Positions 31,305 to 36,838 of a stretch of 39,203 bases of DNA are shown here, in pieces. The notes beneath the pieces were generated by a model that saw only the letters and a list, made by a program, of their open reading frames with translations, was not told the origin of the DNA and made no database searches. A program made the translations under genes and the position numbers. The stretch's first letter is position 1; each line of letters opens with the position of its first letter. The DNA lies in the NCBI GenBank assembly GCA_000989765.1, contig LBOW01000007.1, positions 1 through 39,203 on the forward strand, read 5' to 3'. Source of the stretch: Candidatus Woesebacteria bacterium GW2011_GWB1_33_22. GTDB lineage: Bacteria; Patescibacteriota; Microgenomatia; UBA8517.

Positions 31305-32387
31305 TTACTTTAAGACTGTCAATGGTGATAGTTTTACACCATTTTTGGCAATCTCAAAATGAAGATGCGGTCCAGTAGACCTTCCCGTTGAACCCATTTT
31401 ACCCAAAGAGTTACCTCTTCCTACTCTTTGACCTACTGTTACATAGATTTGTTGCAAATGGGCATAAAGAGTAGCGTATCCATTACCATGATCAATCCTA
31501 ACATGGCATCCATATCCCCAATTCAAACACCCCGCGTAAGTCACAGTCCCAGAATCGGCCGCTAAAACATTAGGTACTCCACGGTTGGCAATATCTAAAC
31601 CTGGATGATACCATGCAAAATTTTGAGAAATTGACCCATTTGTTGGCCAAACAAAATTTCCAGATGCAACAACAGAACCAGCGTCAGGCGTAAGTTGTCT
31701 AATCCTAGGAGAGGTAACAGCTTCAGCAGGTTTAACACCTTCTGGAACAATAACTACTTGGCCTATGGCAAGCTCAAAAGTTTCATCATTACTAAAGGTG
31801 TTAAATGGAAAGTCAACTATACCCTGTGCCTCTGTATCATAACGCTTCGAAATAGAATAAACAGTATCACCCTTTATAACTTTATGGGCTATTCCTGTAA
31901 CAGGTAAGATTTGTAAAATCTGATCAATTTTTATTTTGTCAGCACTTAAATTGTTTTGCCAACGAATCGTGTCTTCATCCACTCCAAATTTTTTAGAAAT
32001 AGAGGCAACAGTATCCCCTTCCTCAACTTTATACTCTTTGATTCCATCTCTTACTTTTTCAGAAACCAAAGTTTCAATACCATCTGACTCTGTGGTTGCA
32101 GATAATACTTGTGGACTTCCTTCAACTTCCCAAGGATTAACGCTTCTTCCTGGAAATTCTTGAGCAATAACTGGAGCAATCATCATACCAATCCCAACTA
32201 AGCCCGCCATACCTGTATGAACTAACTTTCGGGAAAGTCTGCCCCTTTGTTTATACAAAGATGAAACAAAGGCATTTTTATTTTCCGAAACTATTGAAAA
32301 AGAAAGATGAAACTTCTTTTTTAAATAATATCCAAGCTCAGTAATAAAAACTTTCAAGTCTTCTGTTAGGACAATTAGTTCTTCCAT
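31305..32387 (-). CDS. LysM-M23 peptidoglycan endopeptidase
   Basis: The 360 residues comprise a basic cytoplasmic N-terminus, a membrane helix (about 57-76), two LysM domains (about 118-164 and 167-217) that bind peptidoglycan, and a C-terminal M23 (LytM-like) domain. Zinc ligands are complete: H261 and D265 (HPGLD), H341/H343 (GPHLHF), with H310 (YAH). It should cleave peptide cross-links in the wall. The start codon lies in the loop of an 8-bp hairpin right after the -10 box. Confidence 0.92.
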   Translation of the reverse strand: MEELIVLTEDLKVFITELGYYLKKKFHLSFSIVSENKNAFVSSLYKQRGRLSRKLVHTGMAGLVGIGMMIAPVIAQEFPGRSVNPWEVEGSPQVLSATTESDGIETLVSEKVRDGIKEYKVEEGDTVASISKKFGVDEDTIRWQNNLSADKIKIDQILQILPVTGIAHKVIKGDTVYSISKRYDTEAQGIVDFPFNTFSNDETFELAIGQVVIVPEGVKPAEAVTSPRIRQLTPDAGSVVASGNFVWPTNGSISQNFAWYHPGLDIANRGVPNVLAADSGTVTYAGCLNWGYGCHVRIDHGNGYATLYAHLQQIYVTVGQRVGRGNSLGKMGSTGRSTGPHLHFEIAKNGVKLSPLTVLK

Positions 32388-32402
32388 CGAAGAACTATTA
32401 TA
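32377..32402 (-). promoter_or_regulatory. Extended -10 promoter and start-codon hairpin of the M23 gene
   Basis: On the minus strand TGATATAAT (TG extension; TATAAT at 32402-32397) is followed by a perfect hairpin AGTTCTTC-GATG-GAAGAACT (32396-32377) whose 4-base loop holds the ATG. The predicted mRNA begins only about 3 bases before the ATG. Confidence 0.6.
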
Positions 32403-32431
32403 TCATCAATTTAAACCGTCTAAGTAACAAA

Positions 32432-33664
32432 CTAAACCGTTTTGAGGGAGTCTAAGAATTTGTCGTTGTCTTTGGTCTTAATTAGTTTACCAAGTAGAGC
32501 TTCTGTTCTTTCATCTTCATTAATCATGTCTATCATGCGTCTTAATGTATTTACCTTGGTTAATTTTTCGCGACCAAATAAAAGTTCATCTTGTCTTGTT
32601 CCAGATTTTGAAACATCAATTGCAGGAAATATTCTTTTCTCTGCAAGTTTACGGGTCAAATGAAGTTCCATGTTTCCAGTTCCTTTAAATTCTTCATAGA
32701 CCAAATCATCCATTCTACTTCCAGTTTCAACTAAACAAGTTCCAATAATTGTTAAACTTCCACCTTTTTCGATGTTTCTAGCTGCTCCAAAAAATTTCTT
32801 GGCTGGATATAAGGCAACTGGGTCAAAACCTCCAGTTAATGTGCGACCGCTGGTAGGAAGTGCTAAATTATATGCTCTTGCCATTCTCGTTATTGAATCA
32901 AGCATTATTACAACATCACGGCCATTCTCAACTAATCTTTTAGCCCGTTCCAAAGCTAATTCCCCCACTCTTGTTTGATCACTTGGAGCCTCATCAAAAT
33001 TAGAAGCTGCAATCTCTCCTTTACCTTCGGTAACTTTTTCCAAATTTCTTAATATATCCGTTACTTCTTCAGGTCTTTCTCCAATTAATACTGCCATTAT
33101 ATGCACCTGTCTACAGTCTACTGTCGACTGTCGACTGTCAGCAGTTTGCGTTTCAGGGTAATTTTCTGCAATTCCGGCAATAATATCCTTAACAAGCCAT
33201 GTTTTACCAGCTTTAGGGGGCGAAACTACCAAGGCCCTTTGTCCAAAACCAACTGGAGCTAAAAGATCAACCATTCTGGTTGTCAAAATATCCTCAGCTG
33301 TAGATAATTTAAGTTGCTCATCAGGGTAAATGACCATTAAATCGTCAAAATTTACTCTTTGTGTAGCCAAAAATTTCTCCACATCCTCGCTATTTACCTT
33401 TTCAACTTTCAAAAGTCCCCAATATCTTTCATTTTCTTTTGGCCTTCTTGCCTGCCCTCCAACTAAGTCCCCAACTCTTAAATTAAACCTTCTTATCTGT
33501 GAACTTGAAATATAAATGTCATTTTGACTTGGAGCAAAGTTTTTTGGACGCAAAAGACCTGATCCCTCATGGGCAATATCTAAAACACCCATAACAAATT
33601 CTGTTGGGAGATTTGCATCAGGGATCTGTCGTTCAAATGTAGTAACTGGCTCGTCTTTTTGCAT
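32432..33664 (-). CDS. rho: Transcription termination factor Rho
   Basis: The 410-residue hexameric RNA helicase has an N-terminal RNA-binding domain (residues about 22-115: FVMGVLDIAHEGSGLLRP, YISSSQIRRFNLRVGD), Walker A PPKAGKTW (149-156), LLIDERPEEVT-like AVLIGERPEEVTD, Walker B VVIMLDSITRMARAYN, and the arginine-finger/Q-loop region (SGRTLTGG, GGSLTIIGTCLVETGSRMDD). It lacks the long N-terminal insertion of many phyla. Residues about 171-186 (ETQTADSRQSTVDCRQ) are an extra loop absent from typical Rho; the DNA there is a repetitive TCGACAG-type element. Promoter at 33715-33742. Confidence 0.97.
   Translation of the reverse strand: MQKDEPVTTFERQIPDANLPTEFVMGVLDIAHEGSGLLRPKNFAPSQNDIYISSSQIRRFNLRVGDLVGGQARRPKENERYWGLLKVEKVNSEDVEKFLATQRVNFDDLMVIYPDEQLKLSTAEDILTTRMVDLLAPVGFGQRALVVSPPKAGKTWLVKDIIAGIAENYPETQTADSRQSTVDCRQVHIMAVLIGERPEEVTDILRNLEKVTEGKGEIAASNFDEAPSDQTRVGELALERAKRLVENGRDVVIMLDSITRMARAYNLALPTSGRTLTGGFDPVALYPAKKFFGAARNIEKGGSLTIIGTCLVETGSRMDDLVYEEFKGTGNMELHLTRKLAEKRIFPAIDVSKSGTRQDELLFGREKLTKVNTLRRMIDMINEDERTEALLGKLIKTKDNDKFLDSLKTV
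33107..33144. repeat. TCGACAG-type repeat inserted in rho
   Basis: The stretch contains CTGTCTACAGTC then repeated TGTCGAC units and ends CTGTCAG. On the minus strand its first 21 bases match 17 of 21 bases of one arm of the palindromic element inside radA (36310-36363). It is in frame and encodes an extra loop of about 13-15 residues. Confidence 0.65.
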
Positions 33665-33714
33665 GAATCTAAATTAAACTAAAAGAAGCTAATCTCTTTA
33701 CTTAACTAAATCTA

Positions 33715-33742
33715 ATTTTACTCCATTAATAGTAACTGTCAA
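33715..33742 (-). promoter_or_regulatory. Promoter of rho
   Basis: TTGACA (33742-33737), 16 bases and TAAAAT (33720-33715) on the minus strand. The ATG is 50 bases downstream, so rho, unlike most genes here, has a leader of about 45 bases. Confidence 0.6.
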
Positions 33743-33750
33743 GGAGGGAT

Positions 33751-34407
33751 CTAGTTAACAGGGTTAGCTATAACAATTAATCTTTTTAGTGACGTTCCAG
33801 GCGGGTCACAAGTTTGAAGGATTAGTCTTTCCCCTTGACCTTTTTCATTTAACCAAGATGTATCGTTTGCATCTGCAATAACAATATCAGTAACTTCATA
33901 GACGTACTTTTTGTTAAGGAAGTAAACATAAATCTTGTCTTTCTTTTCAAGTTTTCTTAAAAGATAGAAAACTGCGTTATATTCTGAAAAATTTAAAGGT
34001 GAATTAGTTGAGTGGGAAAAAAGATAGACATTACTTTCCTGACCTGGAAAACTTGCACCTCTGGCATGTGCCACCCCCTTTTTCAAAGCCAATAAATATT
34101 CATCTGGGTTTCCTGGATCAATATTGGGAACAATATTTGCCTTGGCATCAATTTTTGGAATATGAATTGAAAAATAAGGATCTAAATTATTACTCCAAGC
34201 ATCATAGGCATCCATTTTAACTATTAAGTCTCCAAACCCAAGTCTGGTGTTTTCTTTTTTTACATTCCAAAACTTGATTTCTTCTTTTAAGATGGGGAAA
34301 AAATAAAAAGTTAAAGAAACTATTGAGAAAGTAATAAAACTGGAGGCAATTATTTCTAATAATTTTCGTCTTCGAGTAAAGTTTTGAGAATCATATACAA
34401 CAATCAT
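33751..34407 (-). CDS. Sortase
   Basis: The 218-residue transpeptidase has a basic N-terminus (TRRRKLLE), one membrane helix (about 18-38) and a sortase barrel. Catalytic residues are H132 (YLFSHSTN), C200 (LILQTCDPPG) and R209 (SLKRLIVI). Sortases cleave LPXTG signals and attach the protein to the envelope. The gene overlaps the LPXTG-protein gene by 4 bases, so that protein is its likely dedicated substrate. Confidence 0.92.
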   Translation of the reverse strand: MIVVYDSQNFTRRRKLLEIIASSFITFSIVSLTFYFFPILKEEIKFWNVKKENTRLGFGDLIVKMDAYDAWSNNLDPYFSIHIPKIDAKANIVPNIDPGNPDEYLLALKKGVAHARGASFPGQESNVYLFSHSTNSPLNFSEYNAVFYLLRKLEKKDKIYVYFLNKKYVYEVTDIVIADANDTSWLNEKGQGERLILQTCDPPGTSLKRLIVIANPVN

Positions 34408-35111
34408 CTAATTTTCTTGAGTAGCCAGAAGCCAAATCCTCCAAGAAAACCTGAGAAAGCTAAAAATGGAAGCCCTCCCCCTGTTTTTGGTAGAACTTTA
34501 GTTACACTTGTGCCCAAAACTGCAGGTGCTGTAGGTGTTGCATCACAATTGCAATCAGAGTCCCCTGCACATATTGGATTTCTACAAAAACCGTTAAAAC
34601 AGAAGTAGCCCCCTTGACAATTATAATTACTTCCACATGTTCCACCGCAATAATTTGGTTCACCTGGTGTATATGTTGGTGTTGTAGTAGGTGTTATGGT
34701 TGGTGTTGTTGTTGGTGTAGCAGTCACTGTTGGTGTACTAGTTGATGTTGAAGTAGATGTTGCTGTTGTAGTTGGAGTAGATCTTGGAGTATTTTTAGGA
34801 TCCTCTTTACGTACACATTGGCCATCACATGTTATAGAGCCCCCACCAATGATTGTTCCTTGAGTTTTACCACGACCAACCCATTCGCATCTTTCTCCTT
34901 TTTGTTTACATTCTCGCCTAGGTTCACTGCACCCTAAAGCTTTAGTTGTTGTAAACCCTGCTTCACTACACGGCTCATTTGCCGTATTTGCCTGACTATC
35001 ATTAGTTTTAATTCTTTGATTAAGCTTTGTAAAAAGTAAACCTGCAACAAAAACTGAAGCTATTGTTATAACTAATCCTACTTGAAGTAATCCTTTATTA
35101 TCCTTTTTCAT
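34404..35111 (-). CDS. Cys-rich LPXTG cell-surface protein
   Basis: The 235-residue protein has an N-terminal signal anchor (about 8-28), a Cys-rich module (48-100), a Thr/Ser/Pro stalk (about 108-150), a second Cys-rich module (153-190; CGGTCGSNYNCQGGYFCFNGF and more) and a C-terminal sorting signal: LPKTG (207-211), hydrophobic stretch and KKIR tail. The Thr-rich stalk is a likely O-glycosylation region. It is co-translated with the sortase. Function of the Cys-rich heads is unknown; they resemble small disulfide knots. Confidence 0.9.
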   Translation of the reverse strand: MKKDNKGLLQVGLVITIASVFVAGLLFTKLNQRIKTNDSQANTANEPCSEAGFTTTKALGCSEPRRECKQKGERCEWVGRGKTQGTIIGGGSITCDGQCVRKEDPKNTPRSTPTTTATSTSTSTSTPTVTATPTTTPTITPTTTPTYTPGEPNYCGGTCGSNYNCQGGYFCFNGFCRNPICAGDSDCNCDATPTAPAVLGTSVTKVLPKTGGGLPFLAFSGFLGGFGFWLLKKIR

Positions 35112-35387
35112 TTAAATAATCTTTAGGAAAGGGTAGTAAGCCTGCCCAACCCACCACCCTTCCCTAAAAACTACTTAACTCACTAAAAGGCCCTTGACAA
35201 GATATTTATTAAGACCTAGTCTAATTACGATTTGTCTTAACAAGTGATTAAGGTTTTCCTGTCCATAAGACAAATTTAGTTCTTAAAGAGCATTTCTACT
35301 CGTGGTGAGTTATATTCCCGATCTAATCGGGAGTGAAAAACCCAGCGGTAGCAATGCTCTTTTTGCTTCTTGTCAAATCTATTTTCG
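35112..35387 (-). ncRNA. Long structured leader (or separate ncRNA) before the LPXTG-sortase operon
   Basis: This gene-free stretch lies downstream of a strong minus-strand promoter. It can form three stems: AAAGAGCATT/AATGCTCTTT (35285-35365 outer arms) enclosing a 7-bp hairpin (TCCCGAT-CTA-ATCGGGA) and a short CTAC/GTAG helix; a perfect 10-bp ATTTGTCTTA/TAAGACAAAT pair around 35228-35273 with a 26-base loop; and a long imperfect GGGAAGGG/CCCTTTCC hairpin (about 35120-35166) close to the ATG. I do not recognise a known riboswitch class. On the plus strand the outer stem is followed by TTTTT, so transcription in the other direction is possible. Confidence 0.5.
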
Positions 35388-35416
35388 AGTATATTACCTT
35401 GAATTATTCCTGTCAA
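35388..35416 (-). promoter_or_regulatory. Strong promoter driving the structured leader
   Basis: On the minus strand TTGACA (35416-35411), 17 bases and TATACT (35393-35388). A second TTGACA (35376-35371) follows without a good -10. Transcription should start near 35381, about 270 bases before the LPXTG gene. Confidence 0.75.
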
Positions 35417-35482
35417 ATCCCATAGTTAAACTGACTGTTCCCCATAGTTAATACGCGTATTATTATCCCAATTTTGTGGGAT

Positions 35483-36838
35483 TTATTTCTTAGATAAATA
35501 ATTGTGGATAACTTGTGGAAGATATTTAAACTCGCTAGAGGTTGCAATATCGCCAAATCCTAATCTTTTGGCGTCTTTTGCTCTTTTTTCTTGAAACTGT
35601 ACTTTTCTTATTTCTCCAGAAAGTCCTACTTCACCAAAACATAAAAACTTTTTAGGGAGTGGTTTGTCAAAAAATGCTGATGCGATAGAAAGACAAATTG
35701 CCAAGTCAACCGACGGATCATTAGCCTTTATTCCACCTGCAACATTAACAAAAACATCCATATCATATAATGGGACACCCGCGCGTCTAAAAAGAACAGC
35801 TAAAAGCATCTCTAAACGTCTTGAGTCAATTCCTTGTGCAACTCTTCGTGGAAAGGGCATCTTTGTGGGTACAACAAGAGACTGTATTTCAATTAAAATC
35901 GATCTTGTCCCTTCCATTAGGATTGAGACAACAGATCCAGCAACGTTTGTTTTGTCTTGCTCTAGAAATAGTTTTTCGGGGTTATCTAGTGAAACAAGGC
36001 CTTTATCCTCCATTGAAAATATACCCACCTCGTCAGTTGCTCCGAATCTATTTTTAACACTTCGAAGTAACCTTAGGTTAGACTGTTTGTCACCCTCAAA
36101 CCACAAAACAGTATCCACAATATGAGCTAAAACTGCAGGACCGGCTACAGTTCCTTCTTTTGTAACATGGCCAACTAAAATAAGAGGAACATTATTGGCT
36201 TTAGCAAATTTTAGAAGTCTAAAGGCACATTCTCTAACCTGCCCCACGGATCCCGCAAGACCTGTCAAGTCAGGAGTAGACATGGTCTGAATAGAATCAA
36301 CTATGACTGCTGACAGTCTATGGTCTACAGCATTGGGTTTGTCTGTAGTCTGTAGTCCGTCAGCCATAAGCGTTCCTATAATTTCATCAACATCAGTTGA
36401 TTCCAAAAACTGAATACTTTTATTGTTTATTCCCAATCTTTTAGCCCGTATAGCTGTCTGACTTGCTGATTCTTCTCCTGATACATAAACCGTCGACTGT
36501 AGACTATTAGCTACTTGCAGTAACAAAGTCGATTTTCCAATACCGGGTTCGCCTGCAATTAAAATTACTTGTCCTGTTACCATTCCACCCCCTAATGCCC
36601 TATCAAGTTCTGATATACCTGTTGTAATTCTTTGCATTTGGTCAGCCTTGATATCAGTAAGTTTTTGTATTTCTAGTTTTCGTCCTGAATTTATCTTTTT
36701 AGCATTTCCTTTTTTAGCATTCGTGAATTTTGCTGTCTCTACCAAGCTATTCCACTCACCACAAAAAGAACATTTACCCTGCCATTTAGAGAATTCATTT
36801 CCACACTGTTGACAAACAAAGATTGTTGAATTAGCCAT
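35483..36838 (-). CDS. radA: DNA repair protein RadA/Sms
   Basis: The 451-residue protein has an N-terminal C4 zinc finger (CQQCGNEFSKWQGKCSFCGEW, starts at residue 9), Walker A GEPGIGKS (96-103), YVSGEES (118-124), Walker B VIVDSIQT (178-185), the RadA-specific KNRFG (262-266) and a C-terminal Lon-like domain (GGIKANDPSVDLAICLS). RadA promotes branch migration in recombination. Residues about 159-176 (DGLQTTDKPNAVDHRLS) are an insertion from a palindromic element. The -10 TGATATAAT (36852-36847) ends 8 bases before the ATG, giving a nearly leaderless mRNA. Confidence 0.96.
   Translation of the reverse strand: MANSTIFVCQQCGNEFSKWQGKCSFCGEWNSLVETAKFTNAKKGNAKKINSGRKLEIQKLTDIKADQMQRITTGISELDRALGGGMVTGQVILIAGEPGIGKSTLLLQVANSLQSTVYVSGEESASQTAIRAKRLGINNKSIQFLESTDVDEIIGTLMADGLQTTDKPNAVDHRLSAVIVDSIQTMSTPDLTGLAGSVGQVRECAFRLLKFAKANNVPLILVGHVTKEGTVAGPAVLAHIVDTVLWFEGDKQSNLRLLRSVKNRFGATDEVGIFSMEDKGLVSLDNPEKLFLEQDKTNVAGSVVSILMEGTRSILIEIQSLVVPTKMPFPRRVAQGIDSRRLEMLLAVLFRRAGVPLYDMDVFVNVAGGIKANDPSVDLAICLSIASAFFDKPLPKKFLCFGEVGLSGEIRKVQFQEKRAKDAKRLGFGDIATSSEFKYLPQVIHNYLSKK
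36310..36363. repeat. Palindromic element inserted in radA
   Basis: Two 21-base arms (CTGACAGTCTATGGTCTACAG and its partner at 36343-36363) pair with 5 mismatches around a 12-base loop. The total is 54 bases, exactly 18 codons, so the frame is kept. A fragment with the same GTCGACTGTAGAC core lies at 36491-36503 in the same gene. It is related to the element in rho. Confidence 0.7.

Follow-up and report, generated by a model that had tools for sequence, protein, structure and literature searches.

The stretch of DNA analysed here, referred to as the window, comprises 39,203 nucleotides of contig LBOW01000007.1 from Candidatus Woesebacteria bacterium GW2011_GWB1_33_22, whose genome belongs to the Microgenomatia (OP11). 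The locus under study (35112-35416) is the intergenic region between radA (sms; 35483..36838; TIGR00416, 516.6 bits), which lies upstream of it, and the ORF of an LPKTG-anchored surface protein (34404..35111), both on the minus strand. The latter ORF, whose C-terminus reads LPKTGGGLPFLAFSGFLGGFGFWLLKKIR and gives LPXTG anchor matches below threshold, is the first gene after a hairpin that we call R2, and is followed on the same strand by a sortase (33751-34407; PF04203), Rho (32432-33664; PF07497/PF00006) and a LysM/M23 peptidase, the whole gene order after R2 covering 31305-35111. Rho in the vicinity of a surface protein was also seen in relatives of the class, e.g., L089, L097 and L118.

The preliminary description of this region had read it on a single strand, as a structured RNA behind a strong promoter, consisting of a 10-bp outer stem with an internal hairpin, a second perfect 10-bp stem and a third hairpin near the ATG. 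The three inner elements, here called hp1, hp2 and R2, respectively, are all present, and the strong promoter was confirmed on the minus strand (35416-35388, 11 of 12 consensus matches). The outer stem dissolved on comparison, its 5' arm (TTGACAAGA) not being kept in 14 aligned family relatives and its conserved 3' arm (UUGUCAA on the minus strand) being the -35 box TTGACA of a promoter on the plus strand. Both strands of the locus fold far better than chance, the minus strand at -102 kcal/mol (z -8.2, none of 100 shuffles being equally good) and the plus strand with a z of -4.7 against shuffles. A G-U pair on one strand reads A-C on the other, and wobble pairs therefore decide the strand. Read on the plus strand, the outer 12 pairs of hp1 contained 123 G-U and 4 A-C pairs in 87 distinct copies, a statistic that is conditional for loci L124-L203, which were found by an hp1 pattern fixing part of this hairpin; the 51 distinct copies found by covariance model alone gave 64 G-U versus 4 A-C. 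For hp2, likewise read on plus, the call was weaker (65 versus 32 in 77 loci), and R2 read on minus had 179 G-U versus 22 A-C pairs in 68 loci. By this measure hp1 is assigned to an RNA on the plus strand, R2 to one on the minus strand and hp2, less strongly, to plus, so that the single-strand reading had to be given up. Fold energies for the entire 5' portion of R1, the plus-strand RNA described below, gave a mixed picture: of 131 cases, 82 folded better and 46 worse when read on the R1 strand.

On the plus strand we predict a small RNA of about 138 nt, R1 (35227..35364, ends predicted; covariance model match 35226-35365), which runs opposite to the operon, has its own TTGACA-N17-TAGTCT promoter and is made up of the 5' hairpin hp2 and the terminator hairpin hp1. 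The predicted promoter (35194..35222, plus) has its TTGACA at 35194-35199 and, after a 17-nt spacer, its TAGTCT at 35217-35222; family relatives conserve both boxes around a spacer of 17-18 nt with variable sequence, and among 122 distinct loci, 77 carried TTGACA-N16..18-TANNNT within 150 nt 5' of hp1 (34/52 in the model-found loci alone), against 0.3% expected from shuffles. The loop of hp2 (35229..35276, plus) is CCUGUCC (35258-35264), and its pairs are kept with G-U changes in the family. The near-invariant hp1 (35285..35364, plus) pairs the arms AAAGAGCATT (35285-35294) and AATGCTCTTT (35353-35362) and is followed by a T run. In the family alignment of R1 (A1, 15 sequences), 13 of 36 pairs changed on both sides, with covariation above that of 500/500 shuffles.

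R2 (35119..35173, minus; covariance model match) is a long hairpin with the loop UUGGGCAGG (35149-35141) and stops 7 nt short of the LPKTG start codon (ATG). Its family alignment (A2, 17 sequences) showed changes on both sides in 12 of 23 pairs and covariation above 500/500 shuffles, and at class level 22 of the 23 pairs changed on both sides, with a covariation of 0.816 versus 0.238 when shuffled and at most 0.197 when slid; covariation, which had been proposed as a check on homologues, is thus present in both R1 and R2. R2 retains the loop UWGGGCAGG in nearly all loci and its stem sequence is freely variable. A T run after the end of the helix was found in only 35 of 83 loci. The promoter of the R2-strand transcript, TTGACA-N17-TATACT (35388..35416, minus), is preceded by two direct repeats CTATGGG (35419..35447, minus; 35447-35441 and 35425-35419), the second of which abuts the -35 box. 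This left-reading promoter with two CTATAGG-type repeats in front is conserved in family relatives, and the repeats lie about 22 or 33 bp apart, i.e., two or three helical turns, in these relatives and in the R2-strand promoters of L084-L203. Upstream on the R2 strand, 70 of 118 distinct loci carried TATRRG adjacent to TTGAC, as against 0.3% expected and none on the opposite strand. The CTATGGG repeats are possibly activator or operator sites, and their helical phasing suggests a bound activator. Within the window's own genome, TATRGGNTTTGACA had a single exact match, at the locus itself, and no regulon of the TATRGG-TTGACA promoter was shown, its only exact match being the locus and its two one-mismatch places standing against five control matches.

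Regarding distribution, blastn against 56 related genomes returned clear homologues in about one and a half dozen family members. By covariance model, 210 of the 328 class genomes carry R1 and 123 carry R2. The filters were strict and lost weak matches, related genomes are treated as separate, as in all counts given here, and absence of R2 on short contigs may reflect missing data. The match was single in nearly every genome, two being found for R1 in G001, G004, G013, G283 and G302 and for R2 in G169. In a phylum sample of 286 genomes, all 18 genomes with R1 belonged to this class. The named GTDB records carrying the locus include Daviesbacteria, Roizmanbacteria, Curtissbacteria, Amesbacteria, Beckwithbacteria, Chisholmbacteria, Gottesmanbacteria and Shapirobacteria, the class comprising them being what we take to be Microgenomatia. 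The hp1 pattern matched 87 stretches, which gave 80 loci; R1 was scored in 79 of these, L197 having no match at E 0.01. A phage origin was considered and set aside, the hp1 pattern having no exact match in viral contigs (viral_contigs).

Forty fetched loci from many families, about half of them chosen for having both RNAs, contained R1 in 37, R2 in 35 and both in 32 cases. Wherever both occurred (32/32) they were divergent and on opposite strands, at distances from some 30 bp to 4.9 kb, and the genes between distant R1 and R2 were mainly on the R2 strand, several with apparent secretion signals by eye. The neighbourhood changes: among loci with enough flank, RadA lay upstream on the R2 strand in 45/104 and Rho downstream in 30/84, and elsewhere in the class R2 precedes rho, follows the gene of a secreted protein or faces a gene that converges on it. 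The R1-R2 pair therefore outlives its neighbouring genes, which speaks for an independent unit. An independent non-coding RNA, one of the two roles considered in the preliminary description, is accordingly well supported for R1 by its own promoter, its terminator and its persistence amid changing neighbours, on the strand opposite to the one assumed.

The loops of the two RNAs match. By lineage, the apex of hp2 reads CUGUCC, CUGCCU, CUGCUC or UUGCCC, and each of these variants departs from a perfect complement of GGGCAG solely through C-to-U changes, by which pairing is kept. Of the 83 loci with R2, 68 have the motif [CT]TG[CT]3 at the apex of hp2, versus 6 of the 33 that lack R2, and it occurs in 6% of shuffles (63/87 versus 8/35 under a stricter earlier definition of the loop); since the loci compared are kin to each other, a p-value overstates the support. 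Fifteen of the 83 R2 loci lacked the motif by this test, several of which carry it by eye, the exceptions being L095, L106, L107, L017 and L172. In the window, the loop duplex (CCUGUCC with GGGCAGG) has a predicted energy of -13.6 kcal/mol versus -4.9 +/- 2.0 for shuffled loops, 1 in 2000 being as low. In 11 loci the -10 box of R1 lies 6-11 nt before hp1, so that R1 would be hp1 alone, about 60 nt long, and none of these (0/11) has R2, two of them (L126 and L159) having less than 500 nt of flank on that side; hp2 and R2 thus tend to be lost together. Two family members, L012 and L015 (G019, G002), have R2 and an hp2-like hairpin without hp1.

Taken together, we regard it as fairly probable from the sequences that the locus is an antisense RNA pair, in which R1 acts against the R2-carrying transcript through loop contact and controls the minus-strand message. 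R1 would be made as a plus-strand small RNA from its own promoter and be ended by hp1, and the minus-strand promoter would yield a transcript running antisense through R1 and carrying R2. In the simplest model, first contact would be made between the hp2 loop CCUGUCC of R1 and the R2 loop GGGCAGG, after which R1 and the opposite transcript would pair along their complementary stretch, which would extend over the whole length of R1 if the transcript runs through to R2. Such pairing would act on the minus-strand message through its stability, its read-through or its translation, the candidate outcomes being decay, termination or a masked ribosome site beside R2. The comparative analysis supports two RNAs, their strands, conservation and promoters, the R1 terminator and the loop match, and from these we infer transcription of both RNAs, loop pairing in the cell and a regulatory outcome. 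CopA/CopT and RNAI/RNAII are antisense-RNA kissing systems with opposite-strand RNAs and loop-loop contact. The pair described here is like them in its opposite-strand RNAs and in loop-loop contact as the proposed first step, but unlike them R1 and R2 are chromosomal rather than at a replicon control region, and the R2 loop proposed to make contact is not part of the stretch that overlaps R1.

In most lineages of the class, the first product of the minus-strand message would be a basic protein of about 50 aa, whose ORF converges on R1; the family of the window has lost this small ORF, and there the message would lead into the LPKTG-sortase-rho genes. We propose more tentatively, with a confidence that stops somewhat short of even, a class-wide and probably vertically inherited RNA control system, which would have started as a minimal hp1 RNA directed against the message of a basic small protein, to which most lineages would have added the hp2/R2 loop pair that holds the RNAs together, and which the window's family would have made into an all-RNA switch before LPKTG-sortase-rho.

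Rather than, or besides, an antisense partner, R1 could have a protein partner. hp1 is near-invariant across the class and retains two bulges, although its flanks, hp2 and the small ORF vary, and this suggests a protein partner as well; the near-invariance of hp1 and of the R2 loop calls for partners beyond each other, possibly proteins. The sequence of hp2 on the R2 strand is similar to the R2 loop, and a single third factor could therefore bind at both. A protein-binding small RNA, in which hp1 would be the site of a conserved class protein with 6S- or CsrB-like logic and R2 a decoy or second site, is nevertheless somewhat unlikely as the main explanation, because the small basic protein cannot be the universal partner, being absent in the window's family, and because hp2 and R2 come and go together. 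R1 would resemble 6S RNA (RF00013) in being a separate small RNA that forms a long hairpin with bulges, but it is shorter and has two hairpins. No RF00013 covariance-model match was found in the window's own genome (G000, 97% complete), nor any match to the small bacterial SRP RNA (RF00169) at E 0.001 or better, R1 and R2 remaining unmatched by the latter as well. The genome's tmRNA maps elsewhere (G000:C13), as does an RNase P-like match below cut-off (G000:C5), and all four identities (6S, SRP, tmRNA and RNase P) were rejected.

The small ORF raises the question of a toxin. In most lineages an ORF of about 50 codons lies between the R2-strand promoter and hp1, converging on R1, and its product ends in one of three main C-termini, ..IPVKLYHL, ..QKLILMVRG or ..LSIPVFTL (20, 27 and 16 of 131 loci, respectively). 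Substitutions fall most often at third codon positions, and codons with a single change were synonymous versus nonsynonymous at 53:48, 190:135 and 49:18 (5, 19 and 3 sequence pairs). The proteins, which matched no family in Pfam or NCBIfam, have a basic character, with a mean charge between +7.4 and +7.5 in three groups, and are mostly not hydrophobic, with a best 19-aa hydropathy of at most 1.11 in ten proteins. With their conserved C-termini they make up an unnamed family of small basic proteins, each about 50 aa long, e.g., at L087, L103, L170 and L192. AlphaFold2 gave one helix (pLDDT 72, pTM 0.35), which was left out of our conclusions, and an ArfA/BrfA-like rescue factor was considered and dropped because the stop codon precedes the hairpin. 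In L111, the small ORF beside R1 ends in codons that repeat 14 nt resembling the 3' arm of hp1 in relatives (GGTAGTAATGCTCT), which looks as though a piece of hp1 had been duplicated into the gene, and in L089/L186 a hydrophobic ORF stands in place of the basic one by eye. In the window there is no ORF between the promoter and hp1; in 15 family loci, in which R1 and R2 are kept, the promoter is only 36-88 nt from hp1 and leaves no room for it, and it was also not seen in Beckwithbacteria L118/L132 and several Curtissbacteria.

A type I toxin-antitoxin system, with the small ORF as toxin, R1 as RNA antitoxin and the window's copy having lost its toxin, would account for the convergent promoters, for the short ORF ending just before hp1, for the minimal R1 of about 60 nt and for hp1 as a shared terminator. 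A T run lies 3' of hp1 in 116/120 loci (48/52 among model-found loci), an A run before it in 90/120 and runs on both sides in 87/120, and since runs flank hp1 on both sides in many loci, it would often be a terminator for both directions; in the window, its minus side has only three T and would be at best a weak terminator on that strand. The par system of pAD1 (Fst, RNA I-RNA II) combines convergent promoters, a small ORF, a short antisense RNA, a shared bidirectional terminator and contact through hairpin loops (PMC7472228), and has the closest layout, its convergent promoters and shared bidirectional terminator recurring in relatives of the class. However, the small hydrophobic membrane toxin that defines par/Fst has no counterpart in the basic, mostly non-hydrophobic protein found here, and unlike par the present loci have a near-invariant hp1, an additional divergent hairpin R2 with a matching loop and mostly a single copy per genome throughout the class. 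Moreover, the window's family lacks the ORF while its RNAs stay. We therefore consider a toxin-antitoxin system quite unlikely.

The proposal of the preliminary description, a minus-strand leader or riboswitch acting in cis on the LPKTG-sortase operon, would fit the position of R2 directly before the LPKTG ATG with a promoter upstream, an arrangement that is similar in L118 and L089. A structure conserved in the sense direction of a single gene family was not found among these loci, since hp1 pairs with G-U on plus where minus reads A-C and the neighbouring genes vary across the class. The claim that no known RNA family covers the region held up: at the Rfam 15 gathering cut-off, the window and 13 class loci gave only rRNA and tRNA and nothing over R1, which also speaks against a known riboswitch, and a permissive search gave only low-scoring matches, mostly to microRNA models far below cut-off, all of which were rejected. 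The leader explanation for the locus as a whole is decidedly improbable; R2 alone is a possible minus-strand leader. Within the window's family, R2 and the leader on that strand are the only parts that may still act in surface-protein sorting, the context of R2 being different elsewhere. That the locus holds conserved terminators and promoters without RNA function is highly improbable; hp1 and some R2 copies are terminator-like, but a terminator needs neither a near-invariant 9-nt loop, nor a near-invariant stem sequence, nor class-wide, mostly single-copy conservation.

In the open-access literature searched, we found no report of these RNAs or of regulatory small RNAs in Microgenomatia, and to our knowledge little seems known about gene regulation in bacteria of the candidate phyla radiation. 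The locus looks like a new small-RNA control system recurring in many members of one class, and the occurrence of a mostly single-copy pair in 210 (R1) and 123 (R2) of 328 class genomes makes this pair a strong core-regulator candidate. The analysis also illustrates a general trap, namely that conserved hairpins can be read on the wrong strand. R1 and R2 yield a testable loop-loop prediction together with a family of unnamed small proteins, and a class-wide RNA control system, if true, would count as one of the first regulatory RNA systems to be described in bacteria of the candidate phyla radiation.
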